From an uncultured Bacteroidales bacterium (GTDB taxonomy: Bacteria; Bacteroidota; Bacteroidia; Bacteroidales; F082), in assembly GCA_900317155.1 (NCBI GenBank), contig ONFO01000001.1, positions 1 to 64,000 of the forward strand: a DNA stretch of 64,000 nucleotides. The letters are read 5' to 3'. Made by a program: the position numbers and the translations under genes. Positions 1,571-58,631 of the stretch are shown here, piece after piece. Under the pieces are notes generated by a model. It was given only the letters and a program-made list of their open reading frames with translations, searched no databases and had not been told where the DNA came from. The stretch's first letter is position 1; every line of letters begins with the position of its first letter.

Positions 1571-3898
1571 TTAAAAAGGATATCCAATTCCAACTTGGAG
1601 TCTTATGTTGTAGAGGTTCCCTAATACACCGTTGTTGAACCGCCAATAACTTCCGCTCGCGTCTCTATAGGGGTTGCGCATGGCGTAAGCTATGTCGAAG
1701 CGGAGAATGAGGAAAGAAACGTCTAATCTGAAACCAATACCCGCATCGACGGCCAATTGCTTATAGAAAGTGTTGAACTTGAATTCGGCGTCAGGCATGG
1801 ATTCATTGGGATGGTAGGTCCAAACGTTGCCGACATCAACAAAAAAGGCACCGTTGACAATATTGTAAATGGGGAACCGGTATTCTGCGTTGAACTCTAA
1901 TTGTATATCACCGGTTTTTTCGATGTCGTCGGAAACGGGGACATAGCCTCCAGGACCTACAGTTCGGTAAAGCCATCCGCGCAGTCCATTGGCACCGCCT
2001 CCATAGAAACTGCGCTCAAAAGGCAAGTCTGCCGAATTGCCGTAGGGGAAGCCGATGCCGACAAATTGTCGCATGACAAACCATAAGTCTTCCCCAAGAT
2101 TGAAGTGTTGGCGGAAGTCGAAACTACCCCTAAGATATTGTGCATAACGAATGCCGAATAACTCATGGTGACCGTCTTCGCTGGTAGTGACGAGTTTAGT
2201 GTTGTTGAGAAGTGAGAGCAGATTTCCGCTCGATTCAAAATCGGAACGAATATAAAAGAAACTACCCGTTTGGTTGATACGCTGCGTGTTGTATACTAAT
2301 GAATATTGTGTGCCTAAAATCAAGTGGCTGGTGTATTGGGCTTTTTTTCGTTGGCTAGTCTCAGCGTCGAGGTAGGCCTGAAAGGTGGGATTGATATTAT
2401 AAATCTTCACGCTGTTGAGTTGGATAGGCGAGAGAGTTTGCCCAAGTCTGTAGTTGCTCTTCCAATCGTAGCTAAAGGATGCAGTTGAGATGAAGCGCGA
2501 ATAGTAGTATCTGGTTTGCGTGTTGACACCTAAAGAAATGGATGTGGTAGGTGGATAGTCGCGGGCCGAAGTGAAAGAGGAGAAAGGTCCTAAGAATTTT
2601 GGAAAGATTAGACTGGCTGTTAGGCCAAGTTCCCAGGTGTTGAAAATGTTTTTTTCGCTTTCTAACTCTTCGTTTCCCAATATTTTTTGTGCCTCAAAGC
2701 CTCCTTTAAGGCTGAGCTGAAAAGTCTCAGCTCCGTGGAAAATGTTTTTGTTGGCATACGACAAACTGCCTTTGACGCCCAAATCGCCGTCCGAGTTAGT
2801 GCCTTCGCCCTGTAACGTGAAAGAATGACGGTCATTCTGCTGCATGGTGATACGGCAATTCAACAAGTTGAGTGAGTCTTGCGATTTGCTTGAAATGGTG
2901 TCGAATTCTATATTGACGTTGTGGAACAGTTTGTAGTTGCCCAAAGCCCTGTACGTGCTGGTAACACTTCTCAGGTTGTATGGAAGCCCTTCAATGATGT
3001 GGATGGATTGATTGAAGGTCTGGGGCGTCACTTGAGGTGTTTCAAAATAGTAGAAATCCCAAACGTTTTTCCGTCTTCTATATCCTGCCTCAACGGTGAG
3101 TGAAGCGGAATCGGTGGGTTTTTCGTTCATCTTGAAAACATTAAAGTCGGGATAGATGCTGATGTCTTTAATATAATATTTTTTGTAGGAAAGCTTGTTG
3201 TCTTTCAGTCGCATGGTGATGGCCAGACTGTGGTTCAGGTAATTGCTGTCCACTTCGAAAAAGATGTCATCGCGGTTGAAAAAGTAGTACCCTGAGTTTT
3301 TCATCCGCTCAGTGATGATTTCGCGCACATCGTTGAGGGAATAGGCATTATAGATATCCCCTTTGTTGATATCGAATTTGACACTGTCGCGCATGATGTA
3401 GCTCCTAATCAAGGAGTCGTTGATTACATACTTGATGTCGTTGATGATATATGGGTTGGTAGGGTAGACGTGGTAAGTTATTTTCGATCGTTTACTTCGG
3501 GTTTTCACCGTGTGGGTCACTTTGGAATGGAAATAGCCGACATTGTTGAGATAAAGCATCATTTGTGTGGTCGAATTGTTGGCACCTGTCGCATCATAAT
3601 AAACGGGCTCTCTTCCGAATCTGTCGTTTAGCCATATCCAAAACTTGCTGTTCGGATTTCGTTCCCATTTGAAGTAAATCCAATTGGGAATTTTGGTTTG
3701 GAAGGTGTTCTTGTAGGGCTTTAAGGTGATGTAGTTTGACAGCCCTGACTTGCTAATCTGGGTCTTTTTGCCTTCAATGACGATTTTATTGCTCTGCACC
3801 AGACTTTTTCCTTCAGGGATAAAACGGTTGATGCCGCACGAGGACATAAAAATGACCACGAAAAATGCGAAGAGAATATGGATCCTTTTGCCAGACAT
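1571..3898 (-). CDS. BamA/TamA-family outer membrane lipoprotein (TamL-like)
   Basis: A 775-residue Omp85-superfamily protein. From the chosen start the N-terminus is a lipoprotein signal with lipobox MSSC (Cys21), which matches TamL, the lipidated Bacteroidetes relative of TamA that works in outer membrane protein or lipid assembly. POTRA-like repeats fill about residues 40-400 and the rest is a beta-barrel. The conserved barrel loop 6 motif is seen as GGGANGLRGW (the usual VRGF/Y, here LRGW). The longer reading frame starts at 3940, but that start would sit inside the -7 promoter element at 3938-3945, so the ATG at 3898 is preferred. No TamB homologue is adjacent. Confidence 0.85.
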   Translation of the reverse strand: MSGKRIHILFAFFVVIFMSSCGINRFIPEGKSLVQSNKIVIEGKKTQISKSGLSNYITLKPYKNTFQTKIPNWIYFKWERNPNSKFWIWLNDRFGREPVYYDATGANNSTTQMMLYLNNVGYFHSKVTHTVKTRSKRSKITYHVYPTNPYIINDIKYVINDSLIRSYIMRDSVKFDINKGDIYNAYSLNDVREIITERMKNSGYYFFNRDDIFFEVDSNYLNHSLAITMRLKDNKLSYKKYYIKDISIYPDFNVFKMNEKPTDSASLTVEAGYRRRKNVWDFYYFETPQVTPQTFNQSIHIIEGLPYNLRSVTSTYRALGNYKLFHNVNIEFDTISSKSQDSLNLLNCRITMQQNDRHSFTLQGEGTNSDGDLGVKGSLSYANKNIFHGAETFQLSLKGGFEAQKILGNEELESEKNIFNTWELGLTASLIFPKFLGPFSSFTSARDYPPTTSISLGVNTQTRYYYSRFISTASFSYDWKSNYRLGQTLSPIQLNSVKIYNINPTFQAYLDAETSQRKKAQYTSHLILGTQYSLVYNTQRINQTGSFFYIRSDFESSGNLLSLLNNTKLVTTSEDGHHELFGIRYAQYLRGSFDFRQHFNLGEDLWFVMRQFVGIGFPYGNSADLPFERSFYGGGANGLRGWLYRTVGPGGYVPVSDDIEKTGDIQLEFNAEYRFPIYNIVNGAFFVDVGNVWTYHPNESMPDAEFKFNTFYKQLAVDAGIGFRLDVSFLILRFDIAYAMRNPYRDASGSYWRFNNGVLGNLYNIRLQVGIGYPF

Positions 3899-46901: not shown

Positions 46902-47705
46902 ATGTCCGAGCATTGGGAAATATACGCTGACTGGAATCCATGGCACGGTTGCACCAAGATTAGTCCTGGGTGTAAGTATTGCTATGTGTATCGCCAGGAT
47001 GAGATGTACGGCAGCGAGATATCAAGCAGCGAATGCAGAAAGACGGGCAATTTCAACCTGCCCATGAAGAGGAAGCGCGACAAGTCGTGGAAGATAGAGA
47101 GCGGCAAACTGGTGTTTACCTGCTTTACCTCCGATTTCCTTCTGAAAGATGCGGATGAATGGCGGCCGGAATGCTGGCAGATGATGAAGCAGCGGAACGA
47201 CCTTTGGTTTTTCTTTTTCACCAAGCGCATCGACCGTTTCATGGAGTGCGTACCAGATGACTGGGGCGATGGCTATGACAATGTCATCGTGGGCTGTACG
47301 GTGGAGAATCAGGAGATGGCGGATTATCGCTTGCCCATTTTCTTGTCGCTCCCCATCAAACACAAGAGCATCATTGCATCCCCGTTGATTACAGCCATGG
47401 ATCTTACCCCTTATCTCGATGTCACGATAGAGGAAGTGTCGGTAGGCGGTGAGTCGGGGGCTGAGGCAAGACCATGCAACTACGATTGGATACTTGCCCT
47501 TCGCGAGCAGTGTATCGCCAAAAATGTCGCCTTTCGCTTTCATCAAACGGGTGCCCATTTCATCAAGGATGGAAAGATGTTTTCTGTGCCACGGTGCTAT
47601 CAGTTGAGTCAGGCCCATAAGGCAAACATTGACTACAAGATAGGCAAATACCTTGTGCCCGCGACGGTGAAGTTCGAATGGAAAGACAGCGATTATCACG
47701 ATTGA
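46902..47705 (+). CDS. DUF5131 (phage Gp37/Gp68-like) protein with a radical-SAM-like cysteine cluster
   Basis: A 267-residue protein starting WNPWHGCTKISPGCKYCYVYRQDEM, with Cys17, Cys24 and Cys27 spaced CX6CX2C as in DUF5131. Other blocks are LVFTCFTSDFLLKDADEWR, WFFFFTKRIDRF, VGCTVENQEMADYRLP and GGESGAEARPCNYDW, all typical of this family. The pattern resembles radical-SAM enzymes, and relatives occur in phages and islands; the reaction is unknown. The start is 20 bases after a good promoter. It opens the accessory stretch that also holds the ATPase at 47916. Confidence 0.85.
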   Translation: MSEHWEIYADWNPWHGCTKISPGCKYCYVYRQDEMYGSEISSSECRKTGNFNLPMKRKRDKSWKIESGKLVFTCFTSDFLLKDADEWRPECWQMMKQRNDLWFFFFTKRIDRFMECVPDDWGDGYDNVIVGCTVENQEMADYRLPIFLSLPIKHKSIIASPLITAMDLTPYLDVTIEEVSVGGESGAEARPCNYDWILALREQCIAKNVAFRFHQTGAHFIKDGKMFSVPRCYQLSQAHKANIDYKIGKYLVPATVKFEWKDSDYHD

Positions 47706-47793
47706 CTAATGATTTTACCATTGACAGCTTGAAAGAAGATATTCGCCCATGTGTTGAATGCTTTCTGCGGGTTGTGGAGCACATTGTGGTATC

Positions 47794-47879
47794 TTATCGA
47801 ATATAATCGATGAAAATAATGCATTTTTGTCGATTATAAACGATAAAAAATATATATTTTTATCGAACATAATCGATAA
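47794..47879. repeat. Three palindromes at exact 33-base spacing upstream of the ATPase gene
   Basis: Three 20-base elements with a 7-6-7 layout: TTATCGA ATATAA TCGATGA (47794-47813), TTGTCGA TTATAA ACGATAA (47827-47846) and TTATCGA ACATAA TCGATAA (47860-47879). Their centres are at 47803.5, 47836.5 and 47869.5, i.e. 33 bases or about three helical turns apart, all on one face of the DNA. The third lies 5 bases before the -7 element and covers the -33 position, so binding there should block transcription. The bound protein is unknown. Confidence 0.8.
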
Positions 47880-47884
47880 AGTTA

Positions 47885-47892
47885 TATCTTTG
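47885..47892 (+). promoter_or_regulatory. Promoter -7 element for AAA ATPase 1
   Basis: TATCTTTG is a perfect TAnnTTTG, 23 bases before the ATG at 47916 and directly after the third palindrome. Confidence 0.7.
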
Positions 47893-47915
47893 CAGTCGTA
47901 AAAAAACGAAAAACC

Positions 47916-49166
47916 ATGTTAAGAAAGGACTTGATTAAGGATATTATCGTTGAAAATCAGCGTTTTATTTCGTCGGTAAGCTTTTTTGAGCGCGACTACG
48001 CGTTTGAAGACGCACTGAATTACGTGCTTGTGGGCTTGCGCCGTGCTGGAAAGTCATATTTGTTGTATCAGCGCATCCATCAATTATTGGAAATAGGCCA
48101 TCGTATGGAGGAAATCTGCTATTTCAACTTTGAGGATGATCGTTTGGGAATAATGACTTTGGCCGATTTGGACATCATCAAGTCTGCTTACGAGGAAATG
48201 TTTGATACCCAACCTGTTTTCTTCTTTGACGAGATTCAGATTGTTGAGGGTTGGGAGAAATTTGCACGGCGGTTGGCCGACCAAAAATACAGGGTTTACA
48301 TCACCGGCAGCAATGCCAAAATGTTGAGTTCGGAGATTGCGACCACTTTGGGCGGACGTTATATGATTATGGAAGTGTTTCCACTTTCATTTGCTGAGTA
48401 TTTGTCTTTTTCGGGCATTAACGTGAAGGAAAAGAATGCCTTGCATCTTCATAGAAAGGAGATTGTGAAGCATTTCGAGACTTATTTCCGTTTCGGTGGT
48501 TTGCCCGAGGTGATGAATGTGGCCGATAAACGCTCATGGCTCAGCGGATTGTTCAACAAAGTTTTTTTTGGCGATTTGATTGCGCGTTACGACATCCGCA
48601 ATGACTTTGGTCTGCGCATTTTGGCCAAAAAGTTGGCGGAAAGCGTAAAGCAGCCTTCATCTTACAACCGTTTGGCTAATGTGGTAAGTTCGACTGGCAA
48701 AAAGGCCAGCACTGATACAGTCATTGATTATGTGAATTACATGTGCGAATCGTGGCTGCTGCTTCCGTTGGAGAACATCATCGGCAAATTGACCGAACGC
48801 AACACCCAACGCAAGTATTATTTCATCGACAATGGCATCCTCAACCTGTTTTTGTCCGACCCAGAGGCCAGCCTTTTGGAGAACATGGTGGCCATTAACT
48901 TGATAAGGAAATACAAGAACGAGGTTTATTTCTACCATAACGGCGTGGAGGTCGATTTCTACTTGCCCGAGCAAAAAAAACTTATTCAAGCCTCTTATTC
49001 CCTGCAAGACGAAAGCACTTTCCAACGCGAAACCGAGGCCTTAGTTAAGGTTTCCAAACGCTTGGAAGTGAATGATTTGATGATTATCGCAAAAGATGAA
49101 GAAACTATCTTGGAAAAGGACGGCAAGACCATTCAGGTGGTGCCGCTATGGAAGTGGATGATATAG
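47916..49166 (+). CDS. AAA_14/DUF4143 ATPase, copy 1
   Basis: A 416-residue ATPase. Walker A is GLRRAGKS (about residues 40-47), Walker B VFFFDEIQ (about 100-108), sensor 1 YITGSNAKML, then LGGRY. The C-terminal half is DUF4143, a degenerate PD-(D/E)XK-like fold: EVDFYLPEQKKLIQASYS keeps the Asp but has Gln-Ala-Ser where an active nuclease has Glu-x-Lys. The role of the family is not established; it is very common in Bacteroidetes. Expression is probably controlled by the three palindromes upstream. No partner gene is obvious; the gene to the right is a remnant. Confidence 0.87.
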   Translation: MLRKDLIKDIIVENQRFISSVSFFERDYAFEDALNYVLVGLRRAGKSYLLYQRIHQLLEIGHRMEEICYFNFEDDRLGIMTLADLDIIKSAYEEMFDTQPVFFFDEIQIVEGWEKFARRLADQKYRVYITGSNAKMLSSEIATTLGGRYMIMEVFPLSFAEYLSFSGINVKEKNALHLHRKEIVKHFETYFRFGGLPEVMNVADKRSWLSGLFNKVFFGDLIARYDIRNDFGLRILAKKLAESVKQPSSYNRLANVVSSTGKKASTDTVIDYVNYMCESWLLLPLENIIGKLTERNTQRKYYFIDNGILNLFLSDPEASLLENMVAINLIRKYKNEVYFYHNGVEVDFYLPEQKKLIQASYSLQDESTFQRETEALVKVSKRLEVNDLMIIAKDEETILEKDGKTIQVVPLWKWMI

Positions 49167-49561
49167 ACGGGTTATTTTGTCAGATGTTTTTGAAATGAAA
49201 ATGTATCTAGTGATGAAGAAGTCGAGAGGTAAAAAGGATTTGGAGATTTTTTTCTTATTTTTGCAGCATTATAGAATACAAGGCCATGAGTCACACCGAT
49301 ATTCTTCATCAAATTCAGCAATTGGCAGACAAGTGGCCTGTTACAAGAATGTCGAACAGGATAAAATCGTATTGGTTGAGTTTGTGGGAAAAAGCGATTA
49401 TGATTACACTTGTTATGCCATGGAAGAAAATACTGCGCCACGAATTGCTTTGACGGGGCTTTTGTTGAGAAAGTAATTGGGCTGATTTATGAAGTCCTAA
49501 TAGTTCTATCCTCAATAAGAAAAATTGTTTATTTGCTTAATCATGTATAAATAGAAACGAA
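49167..49561. other. 395-base gap with one promoter and a broken small gene
   Basis: This stretch between the ATPase and the WG-repeat gene holds the promoter at 49256-49263 and the remnant reading frames listed separately. Nothing else is visible: no tRNA, no clear terminator, and no copy of the palindromes that lie upstream of the ATPase. Confidence 0.6.
49256..49476 (+). pseudogene. Frameshifted small gene with an intact promoter
   Basis: TATTTTTG (49256-49263) is a perfect -7 element 22 bases before ATG 49286. That frame starts MSHTDILHQIQQLADKW and reads on to a stop at 49451-49453 (55 residues). The overlapping frame 49336-49476 gives protein-like sequence ACYKNVEQDKIVLVEFVGKS...LTGLLLRK but has no start of its own after the promoter. 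Joining the two at about 49336 gives one protein of about 64 residues with plausible composition, so a single-base change probably broke it. The product is not recognised; a sequencing error is also possible. Confidence 0.45.
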
Positions 49562-50602
49562 ATGAATAGAGTTTTCAGGTGTTTATTGGCTTTGACGCTT
49601 TTTTGTGTAGCTTGTCAAAACGATGGAATTATTGATGATAATTCAAGAAGATTTCCCGTCTGTGTGGATGGGAAATGGGGATATATTGACACCACTGGTG
49701 CTATTGTTATCGAGCCAAAGTTTGACTATGCAAGTAGCTTTTTCGAAGATCTTGCAAGTGTGAAAACTGATGGCAAGTATGGCTATATTGATAAAAGAGG
49801 AAGATTTATTATTGATCCACAATTTGAAACAGCAGGGAATTTTTCTGAGGGGGTGGCTAGTGTTAAGAGGTTGTCTGATGGAAAAGCAGGTTATATCAAC
49901 AAGGAAGGAGAGTATGTTATCGCCCCTCAGTTTGATGATGTTACAGGTATTTTTGTCGAAGGGTTGGCAGCGGTGAAGAGTGGCGATTTGTATGGTTATA
50001 TTGACAAAACGGGAAAATTTGTTATAAATCCAATGTTTGATGTTGTTGGGCTTTTTTCTGAGGATCTTGCAGTGGTGGTAACTGATGATAAGTGGGGCTT
50101 TATTGACAAGGTAGGGAATAGAATAATCAAGCAAATGTATGGCTCTGCACAGGGATTTTCCGAGGGGCTTGCATTGGTATTAACTGGAGGCAGGTGGGAG
50201 TATTACAATAATACGTGGTTAATGGTTGATGGAGAGTATTGTTATATTGACAAAGAAGGGGAAATCATAATTAACCCTCATTGTAGCAATGCCTTGTCTT
50301 TTTCAGAAGGTCTTGCTGCAGTGAGAATAGATGGTCTTTGGGGCTATATTGACAAAATGGGTAATGTTGTGATCAATCCACAATTCGACTATTTTGCAGA
50401 TGATTTTTCTGAAGGGTTGGCAAGTGTGCAAATTGGTGGTATGAATGGCAAGTATGGTTATATTGACAAAGAAGGGAATATCGTTATTAATCCACAGTTT
50501 GATCATGCATATAGTTTCTCTGAAGGACTGGCAAAGGTTAAGATTGATGGTAAGCTGGGCTATGTCAACAAAAAAGGCAAAATTGTATGGATTGAGAAAT
50601 GA
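49562..50602 (+). CDS. WG-repeat lipoprotein
   Basis: A 346-residue protein with a lipoprotein signal (lipobox FCVAC, Cys about 19) and then about eight WG/KWG repeats of 35-45 residues, of the form WGYIDKxGxxVINPxFDxxxxFSEGLAxVxxxGK. Several repeats carry Tyr-Gly in place of Trp-Gly. WG repeats form beta structures and are thought to mediate protein binding; the role here is unknown. The repeat number could vary between strains. It has only a weak upstream signal: no TAnnTTTG was seen. Confidence 0.85.
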   Translation: MNRVFRCLLALTLFCVACQNDGIIDDNSRRFPVCVDGKWGYIDTTGAIVIEPKFDYASSFFEDLASVKTDGKYGYIDKRGRFIIDPQFETAGNFSEGVASVKRLSDGKAGYINKEGEYVIAPQFDDVTGIFVEGLAAVKSGDLYGYIDKTGKFVINPMFDVVGLFSEDLAVVVTDDKWGFIDKVGNRIIKQMYGSAQGFSEGLALVLTGGRWEYYNNTWLMVDGEYCYIDKEGEIIINPHCSNALSFSEGLAAVRIDGLWGYIDKMGNVVINPQFDYFADDFSEGLASVQIGGMNGKYGYIDKEGNIVINPQFDHAYSFSEGLAKVKIDGKLGYVNKKGKIVWIEK

Positions 50603-50685
50603 TACCTTTGTTCGAACGGATTTTCAATTCGACCATGTTTAACTAGCGATTCGTAAAACGCATCGCCTCTTTCCCGGAAAATTCC

Positions 50686-50693
50686 TATCTTTG
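50686..50693 (+). promoter_or_regulatory. Promoter -7 element for the VWA-like gene
   Basis: TATCTTTG is a perfect TAnnTTTG, 21 bases before the ATG at 50714. Confidence 0.65.
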
Positions 50694-50713
50694 CGCCCTT
50701 ATAAGAGCAATCG

Positions 50714-52786
50714 ATGAATATCGGAATCCCAATATGGATGTTAGCTTTGTCGCTGCTGGCTGGTGTAGCGGCAGCCGCATTGTTGTATTTCCGAAACAAG
50801 AAACAGCACTATGGCAAAGCATTGACAATCATTTTGTTTGCGCTGCGGACATTGATAGTCGGTATGGTGGTGCTGCTGCTCTTCAACCCGTTGATAAGGC
50901 AGAAGTTCAGTTCGGTGGAGACGCCAACCATTATCCTTGCACACGACAATTCTTCATCCGTCATTCTATGCAAGGATTCAGCGTTTTACAAAAAGGATTA
51001 CCAGACCCAAGTTGAGCAGTTTAGGAGAGACTTGAACGCTGATTTTCAAGTCGATGAATACCTCTTTGGTGAGGAAGTCCGCGATTTTGAGCAACTTGAT
51101 TTCTCTGACCAACTGACGGACTTGTCGTCGCTCATAAAGACTTTGGACAGAAGATATTACAAGCGCAATGTGGGCGCGGTGCTGCTTTTTTCCGATGGTA
51201 TCTACAACCGTGGTTTTGAGCCAGAGTTGGTGGCGGAGAACTTTTCGTTCCCCATCCATACTGTGGTTTTAGGCGATACGGTTTCCTATCCCGACCTCGC
51301 CATCCGCAACGTGCATTATAATAAGGTGGTGTCGCTCGGTGCGACATTTCCCGTCCGCGTTACAGTGGCCGCTCGCGACTTGGCTGGACGTAAGGCACAA
51401 CTGACCCTCAAGGAAAGCGGTCGCCTCATTGAGAAGCGCGACATTGAGATTCCGTCCAACCGCTTTTCCAAGGAAATTGACTTCATGCTCGACGCCACCA
51501 AGAAGGGCGTGATGGCCATCGACATAGAGGTGAGCGGCATCGCTGAGGAGGAGCAACTGCTGAACAATGTGCGTCATATCTATGTCGAGGTGCTCGATCA
51601 GAAATATAAGCTGCTTTGCGTGGCTGCTTCACCGCATCCCGACTTGGGTGCCTTGCGCAGCGTGCTCAACGACAACTATGAGGTTGACTTCTGCTTTGGC
51701 AAGGAGGACTTGCCTGAGTTCAGCAACTATGACCTGGTTATCCTGCATCAAGTGCCCTCTGCACGCACTGACTTTGCAGCTTTGAAGTCGCAGTTGGACA
51801 AAAATGTGAAACAGCCCGTATTCTTCATCGTTGGCAACGACACCGACCGCGATATGATTTGCAAGTTGCAGAATGTCTTTGCCTTGCATTCGGGCGCAAC
51901 CAACACCTTGATGGATGTCAAGGCGCATCAAAACACGGCCTTCTCGACCTTCACCTTTGATTCGAAGTCGGAGCAACTCATCTCGAAATACCCACCTTTG
52001 GCCTTGCCGCATCTGGAAATCAACGCTTTGAAATCGCACGACGACCTGTTGCTACAAGAGGTGATGGGCATCAAGTCGGGCCTGCCGCTGTTGAGCTTTG
52101 CCAACGATGGGCGTAAGATGGCCTTCTTGTTTGGTACTAACATTTGGCGTTGGAGGCTGTATGAGTATTACCAAAACAAGAACCACGATGTGTTTGACGA
52201 GATGTTCTCCAAGTCGCTGAAATACTTGTTGCTGTCGGCCAACGATGGTTCGGCCATCTATGCCAAGGAGACCTATTACAGCAACGAGCCTGTCATCATC
52301 ACCGCTGAGTTGCGCAACCCGAACAACGAACTCGTGACCGACCCCGACCTGACCATTCAAATCGAGAATAAGCTGACAGGCGAGACTTACGACTACACCT
52401 TCTCGAAACGCGACCATGACTATGAATTGAACGCTGGACTTCTGCCTGAGGGCTTGTATACCTATAAGGTTCAAGCACAGATGGGCGAGCGTAAGATCAA
52501 TGTGAACGGCACCTTTAGTGTGGTGGCCATCGGCATTGAGGCACAGCAGCTTACCGCTGACATCGACCGGATGCGCACCATAGCTCGCCTGACCAACGGA
52601 AACTGCTACACTGCCCGCGAGTTGCAACAACTTTTTGCCGACTTGCACAATGATTCGCGCATCACCTCCGTTGAACACCATGAGAGCCGCTTTGAGGACT
52701 TGATCCACTCCAAGTGGATCTTCTTCGTGCTCATCGGTCTGGCTGCCGTGGAATGGCTCTTGCGCAAAATGTTTGGCAGTTATTAA
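50714..52786 (+). CDS. Large membrane protein with a VWA-like domain
   Basis: A 690-residue protein with two N-terminal membrane helices (about residues 6-26 and 37-58), a VWA-like region beginning TIILAHDNSSSV (a degenerate DxSxS metal site), a long mixed region with a glutamine-amidotransferase-like fold (YKLLCVAASPHPDLGALRSVL), an immunoglobulin-like segment and a C-terminal helix (about 668-686). The layout matches uncharacterised proteins of Bacteroidetes that sit near aerotolerance (Bat) type genes elsewhere, but no such neighbours are here. Function unknown. The SlyD gene follows 47 bases later. Confidence 0.7.
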   Translation: MNIGIPIWMLALSLLAGVAAAALLYFRNKKQHYGKALTIILFALRTLIVGMVVLLLFNPLIRQKFSSVETPTIILAHDNSSSVILCKDSAFYKKDYQTQVEQFRRDLNADFQVDEYLFGEEVRDFEQLDFSDQLTDLSSLIKTLDRRYYKRNVGAVLLFSDGIYNRGFEPELVAENFSFPIHTVVLGDTVSYPDLAIRNVHYNKVVSLGATFPVRVTVAARDLAGRKAQLTLKESGRLIEKRDIEIPSNRFSKEIDFMLDATKKGVMAIDIEVSGIAEEEQLLNNVRHIYVEVLDQKYKLLCVAASPHPDLGALRSVLNDNYEVDFCFGKEDLPEFSNYDLVILHQVPSARTDFAALKSQLDKNVKQPVFFIVGNDTDRDMICKLQNVFALHSGATNTLMDVKAHQNTAFSTFTFDSKSEQLISKYPPLALPHLEINALKSHDDLLLQEVMGIKSGLPLLSFANDGRKMAFLFGTNIWRWRLYEYYQNKNHDVFDEMFSKSLKYLLLSANDGSAIYAKETYYSNEPVIITAELRNPNNELVTDPDLTIQIENKLTGETYDYTFSKRDHDYELNAGLLPEGLYTYKVQAQMGERKINVNGTFSVVAIGIEAQQLTADIDRMRTIARLTNGNCYTARELQQLFADLHNDSRITSVEHHESRFEDLIHSKWIFFVLIGLAAVEWLLRKMFGSY

Positions 52787-52792
52787 ATCCGA

Positions 52793-52830
52793 AACAACAA
52801 TTAAACAATTAAACAATAAACAATTCAACA
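52793..52830 (+). repeat. Short AACAATT-type repeat leader before slyD
   Basis: The bases just before the SlyD start are four or five imperfect copies of an 8-base unit (AACAATTA). Similar AACAA-type leaders precede valS (58632-58680), exbB (7137-7165) and dnaE. They are A-rich and may help translation where no Shine-Dalgarno sequence exists. Confidence 0.5.
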
Positions 52831-52832
52831 CT

Positions 52833-53372
52833 ATGAAGATTCAAGATCAAGCCGTCGTCACGATGACCTACGTCCTGCGTGAAAACGACGAAAACGGTCC
52901 CATCCTTCAGGAGACCACGAAAGAGAACCCCTTTGTTGCCATCTTTGGCATGCACCAACTGTTGCCCAAGTTTGAAGAGAACTTGATGGGCAAGGAGCCT
53001 GGCGACCATTATGCCTTCCACCTGACCCCAGAAGAGGGCTACGGCGAGCGCGATGAGGCCTATGTGATGGACCTCGACAAGAACATGTTCATGCAAAACA
53101 ACGTGCTGATGGACATGGTGAAAGTCGGGGCCCAGCTGATGATGCAGACCTCTGACGGTCGCCCGATTGCTGGTATCGTCCGCGAGATTGGCGACAATCA
53201 CGTGAAGATGGACTTCAACCACGACATGGCGGGCAAACACCTCCATTTCTCGGGCGAAATCCTCGATGTGCGCGAGTCGACCGATGAAGACTTCAGCGCA
53301 GGTGGCTGTGCCGGTTGCGGCGGCGACTGCGGTGATGGTGGTTGCGAAGGTTGTGGCGGCGGTTGCAACTGA
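52833..53372 (+). CDS. FKBP-type peptidyl-prolyl isomerase, SlyD-like
   Basis: A 179-residue protein folding helper. The FKBP core with inserted flap domain is clear: VTMTYVLRENDENGPIL, the MHQLLPKFEENLMGKEPGD region, TPEEGYGERDEAYV and IVREIGDNHVKMDFNHDMAGKHLHF. The last 22 residues are rich in Gly and Cys (eight Cys in a GCxGCGGDCGDGGC-like tail), which in SlyD binds nickel or zinc. The frame opens at 52773 inside the previous gene; the ATG at 52833 gives the normal start. No hydrogenase genes are nearby, so the tail may serve metal storage or sensing. Confidence 0.92.
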   Translation: MKIQDQAVVTMTYVLRENDENGPILQETTKENPFVAIFGMHQLLPKFEENLMGKEPGDHYAFHLTPEEGYGERDEAYVMDLDKNMFMQNNVLMDMVKVGAQLMMQTSDGRPIAGIVREIGDNHVKMDFNHDMAGKHLHFSGEILDVRESTDEDFSAGGCAGCGGDCGDGGCEGCGGGCN

Positions 53373-53386
53373 TTTTAATATGCTGT

Positions 53387-53418
53387 TTGTAGAGACGTGC
53401 TATGGCGCGTCTCTACAA
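53387..53418. repeat. GTAGAGACG palindrome, possibly also a terminator
   Basis: TTGTAGAGACG (53387-53397) pairs with CGTCTCTACAA (53408-53418), and inner GC pairs close a TATG loop; T residues follow. The GTAGAGACG...CGTCTCTAC type is a widely spread intergenic repeat in other genomes as I recall. It follows slyD directly, so it could end that transcript. Confidence 0.65.
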
Positions 53419-53428
53419 TGTTTTTGAC

Positions 53429-53477
53429 AAAACTCTGGGGAAAAATCATAAAATCTATGATTTTTCCACAGAGTTTT
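53429..53477. repeat. 49-base flanking palindrome, left copy
   Basis: Two 21-base arms (53429-53449 and 53457-53477) match at 20 of 21 positions around a 7-base loop AAAATCT. The arms read AAAACTCTG...AAAAATCAT. It touches the stop codon of the ATPase gene (TAG at 53478). The right copy at 54820-54868 has the same length, same 7-base loop size and mostly the same bases. Confidence 0.85.
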
Positions 53478-54779
53478 CTATTTTGTAATGCAAAATGTCG
53501 CGTAAAGCGGCACGGCTTTGATGTTGTTGTCGAAGCCGAAATGCTTTTGTGAAATCCTGATTGAATAAGGTGCATTGTATTTCTTTGCAAACAAATTCAT
53601 GCTGATTGCCTTGTTCCGTTTGCCTTTCTTGACTTCCACAGGAATGATGTCGGTGCCGAGTTGCAGCACGAAATCCACTTCGGCAGTGTTGTCGTTTTTC
53701 CAGTAGTAAAGCGGAATTTGGCTGGCTTTAAATTGTTGTGCCACATAGTTTTCGGCCAGCGCGCCCAAGAAACTGTTGTCTTGCTCGATGGTGGAAAGCA
53801 CGGTCTGGTAGGCGAGCCCTGACTTCATGGTGAGTAGCCCCACATCGGCCATATAGAGTTTGAAGTCAGAGAGATCGGCATAGGCTGCAATGGGCATCAC
53901 TCCTTGAGTGGTCTTTTGGCATTTCAAGACGATGCCCGCCGATTCCAGCCAGTCGATGGACTCGCCGAACAGCGTGGCACTGCCGCCTTTTTGCACCACT
54001 TTGTATTGGAACTTGGTGTTTTCCTTGGCCAATTGGGTCGGAATTGAGTTGTAGCAAGCCCTGATTTTCACCGAGGTCGAGGTGGAGGCATATTTCGCCA
54101 TGTCGGCCAAATATTCGTTCAAGATGCGGCTTTGGATGTCGATGATGTCCGTGAACTTTTGCGTCTCGATAAATTGCTTGACCACAGCAGGCATGCCTCC
54201 CGTAATCAGGTAATGCTTGTAAAGTTCGATGAGCATTTGGTGGATGCCTTCGGCAAAAGGTTGGTTGTTTGCGAAATGATGTTTGATTTCCTCGGCGAAA
54301 AACTGTTTTCCATTAGCCCAAAGAAACTCCTCGAAATCAAGGGGATACATATTGATTTCATCTACCTTTCCGACTGGGAAGGAGTACTTCTCACGATTGA
54401 CGGCCACCCCAAGCAAGCTTCCGGCGGACACGATGTGATATTGCGGTGCTTCCTCGCAAAAGACTTTCAACGCCATCAGAGCCCGCTCGCTGCTTTGGAT
54501 TTCATCAAGGATGATTAGCGTTTTCCCCGCTGTAATCTTTTGATTGTATGCGGCTTCCAGGTACTGAATGATCCTTGTCGGTGTGAGGTCGCCTTCAAAA
54601 AATGCTGCCGTTGCCGCTTGGTTTTCCAAGTGTACATAGATGGTGTTTTCGAAATAGGTTTCACCAAAAGCCTTCAAGATATAGGTCTTGCCCACCTGTC
54701 TTGCCCCGTTCAGGATGAGCGGCATCCGATTCGGCTTGTCTTTCCAACTGACCAGTTCGGCCATCACTTTTCTTTCCAT
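53478..54779 (-). CDS. AAA_14/DUF4143 ATPase, copy 2, flanked by palindromes
   Basis: A 433-residue ATPase of the same family as the gene at 47916 but distant in sequence. Walker A NGARQVGKT (about residues 24-32), Walker B LIILDEIQ, sensor VSAGSLLGVAV, and in the C-terminal domain an intact-looking PD-(D/E)XK site: EVDFVLQ followed by IPVEVKKGK. That differs from the first ATPase, where Glu-x-Lys is lost, so this one could still be a nuclease. A -7 element lies 21 bases upstream. The gene plus its two 49-base palindromes forms a 1440-base unit (53429-54868) that looks like a cassette. Function of the family unknown. Confidence 0.87.
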   Translation of the reverse strand: MERKVMAELVSWKDKPNRMPLILNGARQVGKTYILKAFGETYFENTIYVHLENQAATAAFFEGDLTPTRIIQYLEAAYNQKITAGKTLIILDEIQSSERALMALKVFCEEAPQYHIVSAGSLLGVAVNREKYSFPVGKVDEINMYPLDFEEFLWANGKQFFAEEIKHHFANNQPFAEGIHQMLIELYKHYLITGGMPAVVKQFIETQKFTDIIDIQSRILNEYLADMAKYASTSTSVKIRACYNSIPTQLAKENTKFQYKVVQKGGSATLFGESIDWLESAGIVLKCQKTTQGVMPIAAYADLSDFKLYMADVGLLTMKSGLAYQTVLSTIEQDNSFLGALAENYVAQQFKASQIPLYYWKNDNTAEVDFVLQLGTDIIPVEVKKGKRNKAISMNLFAKKYNAPYSIRISQKHFGFDNNIKAVPLYATFCITK

Positions 54780-54799
54780 AGTTTTTGCCTTTTAAGCCG

Positions 54800-54807
54800 C
54801 AAAAATA
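54800..54807 (-). promoter_or_regulatory. Promoter -7 element for AAA ATPase 2
   Basis: CAAAAATA reads TATTTTTG on the minus strand, a perfect TAnnTTTG. The palindrome beginning at 54820 covers the place of the -33 element, so it may also be an operator. Confidence 0.65.
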
Positions 54808-54819
54808 ATCATTTTTGAT

Positions 54820-54868
54820 AAAACTCTGGGAAAAAATCAGAATTTGTATGATTTTTACATAGAGTTTT
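54820..54868. repeat. 49-base flanking palindrome, right copy
   Basis: Two 21-base arms (54820-54840 and 54848-54868) match at 17 of 21 positions around a 7-base loop AATTTGT. It shares AAAACTCTGGG, ATCA, ATGATTTTT and AGAGTTTT with the left copy in the same places. It lies upstream of the ATPase start. Confidence 0.85.
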
Positions 54869-54932
54869 GTTGATATCTTGTTTAATGGAGGGCATGTTTC
54901 CTCAAAAATTGCGCAACTTATTGAAATATTTT

Positions 54933-54968
54933 CTGCGCAAATGATGCTTTTTTATGCCATTTGCGCAG
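54933..54968. repeat. TGCGCA inverted repeat
   Basis: CTGCGCAAATG (54933-54943) and CATTTGCGCAG (54958-54968) form a perfect 11-base-pair stem around a T-rich loop. A further TTGCGCAA lies at 54909-54916. It sits in the empty region between the ATPase promoter and the RNA promoter; it may be an operator, a transcription stop, or part of the same kind of repeat as the neighbouring palindromes. Confidence 0.5.
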
Positions 54969-55046
54969 ATTATCTTTGGGTTTTCTGCGGAAATGTGTTA
55001 TTGAAAAACTTTTTCTCCGTTTTCCATAGTTTAAAAGCATTTTCTT

Positions 55047-55375
55047 TATATTTGCGCCGTCATTCGATGAGTATAGGATGAAAAAACATTGAAGAGAATG
55101 TAATTTGAATACAAAAATTAACAATTAACTGATTATAAATCAAAACATTAGCCTATGAGATAACGCTTCAAGCGATATGCACATCATAGAATAGGAAAAA
55201 GCGGAGTAGCTTAGCTGGTTGTTCTGAAACTTGGACACTTTCAAACAATTTCCCAGAGTAAAGCAACGATGCTCCCGCCATGTGGCGTGGGCTTTGCTCG
55301 TTGTAATTGGGAGATTGTAGGTAGTCCAAGACCTCAGAACAACCAATGAAGGCGAAAAAGTGCCACGCTTTTTTT
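55047..55375 (+). ncRNA. Structured non-coding RNA candidate (6S-like rod)
   Basis: A promoter TATATTTG (55047-55054), a small hairpin domain (55153-55158 with 55184-55189, enclosing CGCT/AGCG) and then a long interrupted rod: GGTTGTTCTGA (55217-55227) with TCAGAACAACC (55334-55344), CTTGGAC (55230-55236) with GTCCAAG (55324-55330), 55245-55255 with 55308-55318, GAGTAAAGC (55256-55264) with GCTTTGCTC (55291-55299), and CGCC (55276-55279) with GGCG (55284-55287). A hairpin with seven T (55355-55375) follows. No protein-like frame covers it. The shape resembles 6S RNA; that identity is inference. It could also be a leader of the gene at 55492. Confidence 0.6.
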
Positions 55376-55491
55376 GTGTGCGTAAATTGGTTAAGGTACG
55401 GGCGGAGAATCCTGAAAAGCCATAATAGAGTAGGGAAAACAAAATCATCAACAAAACTGCGGGCGACAGGATAAAAACTGCCAAAATTGAA
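55376..55491. other. Leader region before the small secreted protein
   Basis: The 116 bases between the RNA terminator and the next start hold no clear promoter, hairpin or reading frame. If the terminator is read through, this would be the leader of the gene at 55492. Together with 54869-55046 this is the largest gene-free part of the window. Confidence 0.4.
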
Positions 55492-55896
55492 ATGAAAAAA
55501 TTGTTTTTAATATTGGTTGCTGCGATGACAATCTTTTTGGGCTCATCGTTCAAACCCAATGCAATGTCTCAACAAACCCTGTCCAGTGTTACACCTCAGC
55601 AAGAACAATGTTATAGGGTGAAAGTGACGTATGATATAATTTATGAATTGAGGACTGAAAGATGGGGCGGAAGTGTGATACAATCTAAAACTGTGAAATC
55701 TGGTGAAACTTATATAACACCACAATGCGCTGACAGCGAATCTGAAGCAAGGGATCAAGCGGTAAGTGAATGTTATAATGCTTGTAATAATGGAGAAGGC
55801 AAATATGTCAAAGAAGCAAGTAATGGTAATGGTTTCATATTCGAAGTAAGACGGGTAACAAGAACCGATATTATTGGAACTTGCGGAAATTGTTAA
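55492..55896 (+). CDS. Small secreted protein of unknown function
   Basis: A 134-residue protein with a signal peptide (about residues 1-22, cleavage near SSFKPNA). The mature part is rich in Cys, Glu, Thr and Ser, with five Cys (including CADSESEARDQAVSECYNAC and a final CGNC), which suggests disulfides. I do not recognise the family. It follows the structured RNA at 55047-55375 and has no obvious promoter of its own, so it may depend on read-through. It shares a perfect bidirectional terminator with valS. Confidence 0.6.
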   Translation: MKKLFLILVAAMTIFLGSSFKPNAMSQQTLSSVTPQQEQCYRVKVTYDIIYELRTERWGGSVIQSKTVKSGETYITPQCADSESEARDQAVSECYNACNNGEGKYVKEASNGNGFIFEVRRVTRTDIIGTCGNC

Positions 55897-55902
55897 TAAT
55901 GT

Positions 55903-55941
55903 AGAAACGGGCTTCACCAACAAAAGATGAAGCCCGTTTCT
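55903..55941. terminator. Bidirectional terminator between the small secreted gene and valS
   Basis: AGAAACGGGCTTCA (55903-55916) and TGAAGCCCGTTTCT (55928-55941) pair perfectly over 14 bases, followed by TGTTTTG on the plus strand. It lies between converging stops (55896 and 55953). Confidence 0.85.
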
Positions 55942-55952
55942 GTTTTGAAAAC

Positions 55953-58631
<2,679 letters not shown>

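Follow-up and report, generated by a model that had tools for sequence, protein, structure and literature searches.

We propose that an ATPase-nuclease gene of an uncultured Bacteroidales bacterium encodes a protein that probably binds a private operator of its own, as each protein of this kind would, and that a second copy of the site behind the gene probably allows recombination between the two copies to remove the gene. The gene lies in the window, which is the whole stretch of 64,000 nucleotides that we analysed, between two palindromes, here termed U (upstream) and D (downstream; Table 1). This reading rests on the presence of both sites in all full-length orthologues, invariant blocks within the sites, the fixed distance to a -7-like element, a core dyad in close homologues, repeats with a period of 32-33 bp, the tracking of repeat sequence by the recognition segment of the protein, and the winged-helix model. 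Against it speak D, which has no promoter to control, folds strongly and is terminator-like, the failure of a first test of the period on DUF4143 genes at large, the share of relatives that lack such a repeat, and the weakness of the correlation with the recognition segment.

Table 1. Features around the ATPase gene and its paralogue in the window.
Feature	Position	Strand	Remark
AAA_14, winged-helix-like and DUF4143/PD-(D/E)XK gene, 433 aa	53478..54779	-	matches PADLOC PDC-S01
Palindrome D (downstream)	53429..53477	.	putative bipartite half-sites in a dyad; follows the ATPase stop codon, with the convergent slyD-like gene on its other side; hairpin possible
Palindrome U (upstream)	54820..54868	.	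putative bipartite dyad as in D, over the promoter
57-nt direct repeat, copy 1	53421..53477	+	palindrome and 8 nt on one side
57-nt direct repeat, copy 2	54812..54868	+	
TATTTTTGC, presumed -7-like promoter element	54799..54807	-	12 nt from palindrome U
FKBP-type gene, convergent neighbour (presumably slyD-like)	52833..53372	+	single palindrome at its 3' end in gene-less genomes
Paralogous AAA_14/DUF4143 (PDC-S01) gene	47916..49166	+	
Three 33-bp-spaced repeats with dyad symmetry, other sequence	47794..47913	+	in front of the paralogue

Both palindromes are 49 bases long, stand in direct orientation 1391 nt apart and agree at 42 of 49 positions (86% over the 57-nt repeat); 0 such paired patterns were expected by chance in 100 shuffles of the window. 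The first-pass annotation, which had described two similar palindromes enclosing an AAA_14/DUF4143 gene, is borne out for the palindromes and for both domains. Its arms of 21 bases with a 7-base loop are about right for the left copy, D, which is near perfect (arms of 22 nt that are 95% complementary, separated by 5 nt), but not for the right copy, U, which is imperfect as a palindrome. As RNA, D folds at -25.8 kcal/mol (z -8.7) and U at -11.8 kcal/mol, and D has an A-tract and a T-tract at its ends. As also claimed earlier, D adjoins the stop codon of the ATPase gene and U covers the -33 position: it ends 12 nt before TATTTTTGC, which we take to be a -7-like element by its promoter consensus, and in each of the 13 upstream copies examined this distance is 11-12 nt. 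No known RNA family reached its gathering threshold within 47000-57000, and no third palindrome copy was found in the genome of the window (G000; 3,800,881 bases in 65 contigs), which elsewhere holds two lone half-site matches with 2 mismatches. Beside the slyD-like gene, the window also carries a GTAGAGACG...CGTCTCTAC palindrome (53387-53418); similar palindromes lie near the unit in several relatives, and this may be a separate dispersed repeat.

The encoded protein matches the Pfam families AAA_14 (1.6e-25) and DUF4143 (2.2e-32) and, over residues 1-432, the profile of PADLOC PDC-S01 (E 1.1e-170), a single-gene phage defence candidate that combines the same two domains; no NCBIfam profile matched it. 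By this whole-length match we assign it to PDC-S01 as a candidate phage defence protein, and its paralogue in the window matches another PDC-S01 profile (5.2e-96). Residues G30, K31, D92, E93, E367, D369, E382 and K384, which we take to be those of the Walker A/B and PD-(D/E)XK motifs, are invariant in an alignment of 16 sequences and intact in the window protein, as the first-pass annotation had seen for the nuclease site. The predicted structure is confident and includes a stretch at about 233-310 that looks winged-helix-like by its secondary structure. Region 1-320, which contains this stretch, matches PABY2304 (2qen) and SSO1545 (2fna), which we count with the STAND NTPases among the closest known systems; these matches stop short of the C-terminal nuclease domain. 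A search by sequence among solved structures gave no convincing relative. Plasmid and phage collections hold 67 and 12 records with relatives, all below 60% identity. With 32 DUF4143 matches (27 over the cut-off) in 3.8 Mb, the genome of the window shows a large expansion of such genes.

Alignment of 13 upstream and 13 downstream palindrome copies showed that each arm consists of two nearly invariant blocks, AAAACTCT and AAAAATC (positions 1-8 and 13-19), with variable columns between the blocks and in the centre; within the blocks, one downstream copy departs at its outermost pair and two upstream copies depart at column 31. For U, columns 9/41 place A opposite C in 11 of 13 sequences, and columns 10/40 and 12/38 hold non-complementary bases in most of the 13. 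Shuffling of paired columns reached the observed pairing in 997 of 1000 trials for U and in 1000 of 1000 for single copies, hence no support for covariation, and in 39 of 1000 for D (the 48-nt D copy of G057 left out), which is weak support. Because the non-complementary pairs between the blocks are conserved, pairing itself is not kept in U, and the palindromes look like protein-binding dyads, each with two bipartite half-sites, rather than hairpins. A hairpin or cruciform as the main function was rejected on the mismatched columns that U keeps. It is likewise highly improbable that the nuclease domain recognises and cuts extruded hairpins, as had been suggested from its intact active site: E367, D369, E382 and K384 are indeed invariant, but pairing is not the conserved feature of U, given A opposite C in 11 of 13 copies, and many relatives carry direct repeats and no single long palindrome. 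D pairs better than U and folds strongly, and could act as a terminator too.

A search for orthologues in 199 relatives gave a match in 153. Both palindromes are present in all 12 full-length orthologues (82-100% amino acid identity, our own included), one of which lies at another locus, and an orthologue lacking flanking palindromes, which the first-pass annotation had named as counter-evidence, is not among these 12. In G096 the gene is split over two contig ends with a palindrome beside each part, and in G044 it is cut by a contig end with the downstream palindrome alone visible. Counting these two, 14 of the 24 palindrome-bearing genomes among 99 of the genus have the gene; the other 10 carry a single gene-less copy, in every case at the 3' end of the slyD-like gene. 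Many copies elsewhere without such genes, the other counter-evidence named in the first-pass annotation, came down to these single copies at the slyD-like locus in 10 of 99 genomes and one extra match with 3 mismatches in G022. Two more single copies, each with an indel, were found by reading in G074 and G056. Like palindromes of the REP/MITE type, U and D are short and intergenic; unlike them, they have 0-2 matches in any of the 99 genomes, located, save for G022, at the gene or at the slyD-like 3' end, and an identity as a dispersed repeat was rejected on this count.

Comparison of empty with filled sites, which the first-pass annotation had proposed, showed that the flanks agree and that one palindrome remains at empty slyD-like sites, with no clear short duplication seen. 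The single-palindrome site of G074 and the filled site of G082 share 59/60 nt on the left and 100/100 nt on the right, and those of G055 (single) and G079 (filled) share 56/60 and 99/100 nt. The unit thus behaves like the cassette that had been suspected, with gene and both palindromes in some genomes and exactly one palindrome in others between the same flanks. Two extra bases beside the palindrome in four one-palindrome genomes (G070, G064, G073 and G028) match the last bases of the gene's stop codon and read as a deletion trace; they could also be target sequence. Of 30 slyD-like loci fetched, 8 lack a palindrome altogether. On a locus tree of 40 genomes built from neighbouring DNA, filled and unfilled states are intermixed, with 12 or more changes of the filled state; because this tree counts changes only (its root is not inferred, its bootstrap is unsettled, support is rough and the flanks recombine), it does not polarise gain versus loss at the slyD-like locus. 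The DNA of the gene is 94-96% identical to that of G000 in five genomes whose valS is 93-95% identical; in G043 and G057 the gene is 83 and 79% identical, versus 92 and 88% for valS.

The unit also occurs at other genomic sites. In G095 it lies, both palindromes included, with an MBOAT gene on one side and a carbon-nitrogen hydrolase gene on the other; a GTAGAGACG...CGTCTCTAC-like palindrome is found beside the insertion. Among 30 hydrolase loci, the MBOAT gene was found in 4, where the two genes nearly touch; no palindrome is present at these 4 junctions, which leave hardly any space for one. A relative of about 54% identity is found in three unrelated contexts in G030, G037 and G035, with 82-92% DNA identity among the copies, again in keeping with a cassette. 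The segment common to the copies begins no more than a few bases from the palindrome; in G030 and G037 it stops about 65 nt past the aligned end of the gene, where no palindrome was seen, and in G035 it runs off the contig. The neighbours of the G030 and G037 copies are genes other than the slyD-like one. Those of G037 (a glycosyltransferase and an ABC protein) are separated by 2-149 bp in 19 of the 30 loci examined, and the gap at these 19 loci contains no palindrome, the best half-site match being 74%. Just past the gene in both G030 and G037 (loci L090 and L091) there is a repeat, ATGGCGACGGA..AGGGANGGANATG, with one match in each of the two genomes and none in G035 or G000; a diverged copy lies ahead of the palindrome in G030, which makes this a further type of direct repeat around the unit. 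At the loci L024 (1-60 and 2971-3017) and L025, a TGTAAAG...CTTTACA repeat flanks a two-frame stretch with an AAA_14/DUF4143-type gene, and this repeat is also found near another gene of that type.

These distributions bear on a fairly unlikely alternative, namely that the palindromes are the ends or the target of a mobile unit moved by the ATPase-nuclease, in which gene and palindrome insert beside a resident palindrome and single-palindrome sites are unoccupied targets. Such a unit would fit the common flanks of filled and one-palindrome sites, the interleaved states with their 12 or more changes over 40 tips, the second site in G095, the three unrelated contexts in G030, G037 and G035 with shared DNA starting close to the palindrome, and the same two extra bases in four one-palindrome genomes if these are target sequence. 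However, the ATPase gene is the sole gene between the palindromes and, unlike a DNA transposon or insertion sequence, the unit has no transposase or site-specific recombinase gene. Moreover, the MBOAT/hydrolase and glycosyltransferase/ABC sites lack a palindrome where the neighbours adjoin, the right end of the segment shared by G030 and G037 is not seen as a palindrome, and no clear target duplication was found. The two extra bases fit a deletion trace as well, and divergence of the gene roughly follows that of its neighbours in the close group, but not in G043 and G057.

The palindromes could also be transcription terminators, with D ending both convergent genes and U a duplicate that lies over the promoter by chance. 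The fold of D, its A-tract and T-tract ends, its place between convergent genes and the persistence of single copies where the slyD-like gene ends all agree with this. We nevertheless regard it as quite unlikely, as U folds less well and keeps a non-complementary pair in 11 of 13 copies, the dyad precedes the gene in close homologues of other phyla, the copies in G030 and G037 have other neighbour genes, and many relatives have direct repeats instead.

For the wider family, 80 named homologues (37-66% identity) were fetched, of which 78 were usable. A core AAARTCA-N5..9-TGAYTTT, with at least 12 of 14 matches, occurs upstream of 8 of the 10 named homologues with at least 50.9% identity (two of the 8 are near-identical Fibrobacter records), and overall in 12/78 homologues versus 12/188 control upstream regions; the core of the window's dyad recurs upstream of close homologues in other phyla. 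Among the more distant homologues examined, a downstream copy was seen in only two: in L176 (66% identity) the extra copy follows the gene, and in G138 (62%) related palindromes that differ in their outer arms flank the gene. A best inverted repeat of at least 10 was found in 22/78 versus 18/188 regions, which differ in AT content (0.70 versus 0.62). Apart from L018, no window-like palindrome pair was recognised at the paralogues of the own genome among the 30 frames listed; in L018, similar short GC-rich palindromes, which look like terminators, lie 209 nt upstream and 41 nt downstream of an AAA_14/DUF4143-type gene (2396-3562, minus strand).

Many members of the family carry direct repeats upstream in place of the palindromes. 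In the own genome, repeats with z>3 precede 17 of 28 genes of this type, chosen by sequence motifs and not by a profile, versus 5 of 48 controls, and the repeated sequence differs from gene to gene. The paralogue in the window, 4 kb from the palindrome gene, is preceded by TTATCGA...TCGATAAA repeats that are wholly unlike U and D and constitute its own private array. Among the named homologues, scanned over equal upstream lengths, 30/78 have direct repeats (z>3) versus 11/188 controls and 3/79 downstream regions, and the offset is 32, 33, 65 or 66 in all 30. For own and named genes together, with unequal upstream lengths (180 nt for the family, 120 nt for controls), the best repeat falls at 32 or 33 in 45 of 108 genes, at 64-66 in 6 and elsewhere in 7; four controls fall at 32/33, three of which encode ATPases of this kind, judged by their N-termini. 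Composition-preserving shuffles were used for the own-genome genes, for the named homologues scanned over equal lengths and for the follow-up sets. Archaeal members (L186, L199 and L230) share the 32-33 bp period, and bacterial promoter grammar does not apply in archaea. In the own genome, TAnnTTTG is found within the last 75 nt before 13 of 16 array genes, in 9 of them in or at the edge of the array. Repeated or dyad sites overlap the gene's own promoter or lie near it. By eye, the half-site AAAACTCTATGGAAAAATCA appears to resemble the direct-repeat unit AAAGTTCGTAAGGAAAAATGTA of other members (L211).

How far this period extends was examined with criteria set beforehand. Of 30 PF13635 loci from the phylum (the best-scoring Pfam matches, one per genome, 15 of them with frames below 410 aa), 27 were usable and 0 had a repeat at 32-33 bp, scanned over 150 nt where 130 had been stated; 22 neighbour genes had no repeats either. 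The result shows that the period is not a property of DUF4143 genes at large. Three of the PF13635 genes (L352, L359 and L365) have upstream direct repeats with a period of 22 bp, or two helical turns, as has L430, a relative of the window protein. Likewise, none of 12 usable PF01637 loci (of 30) had a 32-33 bp repeat. We then restricted the claim to relatives whose alignment to the window protein starts at its first residues, using new genes and a threshold of at least 30%. In this follow-up, the repeat was found in 12/20 genes from other genera and families of the order and in 16/19 from the genus, together 28/39 with about 0.1 in shuffles; the former set is the cleaner one, as some genus members such as L434-L436 have alike arrays and look like orthologues, either of one another or of genes in the own genome, so that the 19 are not independent cases. 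A phylum set, added at fetching and outside the prior statement, gave 5/10 usable genes from 20 regions. Shuffles expect 0.1 in all of these sets, and downstream regions gave 1/48. The share of relatives without a 32-33 bp repeat ranges from 3/19 to 48/78. The period therefore belongs to the part of DUF4143 near the window protein and not to all DUF4143 genes.

Partial Mantel tests related repeat similarity to identity of the recognition segment of the protein, at about residues 262-292 (r 0.177, p 0.004), and to the winged helix (0.140, p 0.015), a weak correlation of small effect with phylogeny partly controlled. Identity of the AAA (-0.015) and nuclease (-0.050) domains did not track the repeats, and the middle region was not far behind (0.073, p 0.094). 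These values would suit a protein that reads its own sites, although another regulator may read them.

In the private-operator reading, the winged helix of a dimer or larger assembly would read the half-site AAAACTCT-N4-AAAAATCA, and the bound upstream copy would, judging from its position, cover the promoter and keep expression of the gene low. Many relatives would follow the same principle with other sequences, with inverted pairs in the clade of the window and elsewhere direct repeats of 32-33 bp, equal to three helical turns; such private sequences would prevent cross-talk between the paralogues of one genome. Here, the second copy lies behind the gene and gene-less genomes keep one copy between the same flanks, and recombination between the two copies would delete the gene and leave one site. 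While the gene is present, D may serve as a second binding site, as a terminator for the two convergent genes, or as both. The earlier suggestion that the gene's own protein binds both ends fits this operator evidence.

An unlikely extension would see the PDC-S01 subfamily of this gene as selfish or immune one-gene units, each with a private, mutually exclusive cis-site that serves jointly as operator, as recombination end and as mark of self. On its own sites the ATPase-nuclease would be quiet; titration, copying or loss of these sites, which an invading element might cause, would free it to act, and single palindromes would be scars of lost units.

Direct repeats at helical spacing over the gene's own promoter are also a feature of iteron-controlled genes, such as plasmid rep genes and the ORB repeats beside orc1/cdc6. 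Like the window family, these encode an AAA+ and winged-helix protein with promoter repeats, and the best Foldseek matches of the window protein include Cdc6/Orc1 bound to origin DNA. Unlike in iteron systems, no replicon was seen here, the window protein carries a nuclease domain, and the 32 DUF4143 matches of the own genome include array-bearing genes that each have their own repeat sequence. In the literature on DUF4143, COG1373, PDC-S01 and iterons, as far as accessible, we found no mention of these promoter repeats.

According to the accessible parts of two studies, PDC-S01 is an ATPase domain fused to a member of the PD-(D/E)XK superfamily and ranks fourth in frequency among the defences of all prokaryotes, although most candidates of this sort still await experimental validation (PMC12988326), and it is the most frequent individual locus in rumen genomes (PMC13356809). 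Those parts contain nothing on promoter repeats, and the cis-elements are the new part relative to known PDC-S01. A private DNA site ahead of many members provides a handle on what PDC-S01 proteins recognise, and bears on how many paralogues coexist in a genome and how the genes come and go. If each protein does bind its own operator, this reading predicts binding, repression and swaps of specificity.
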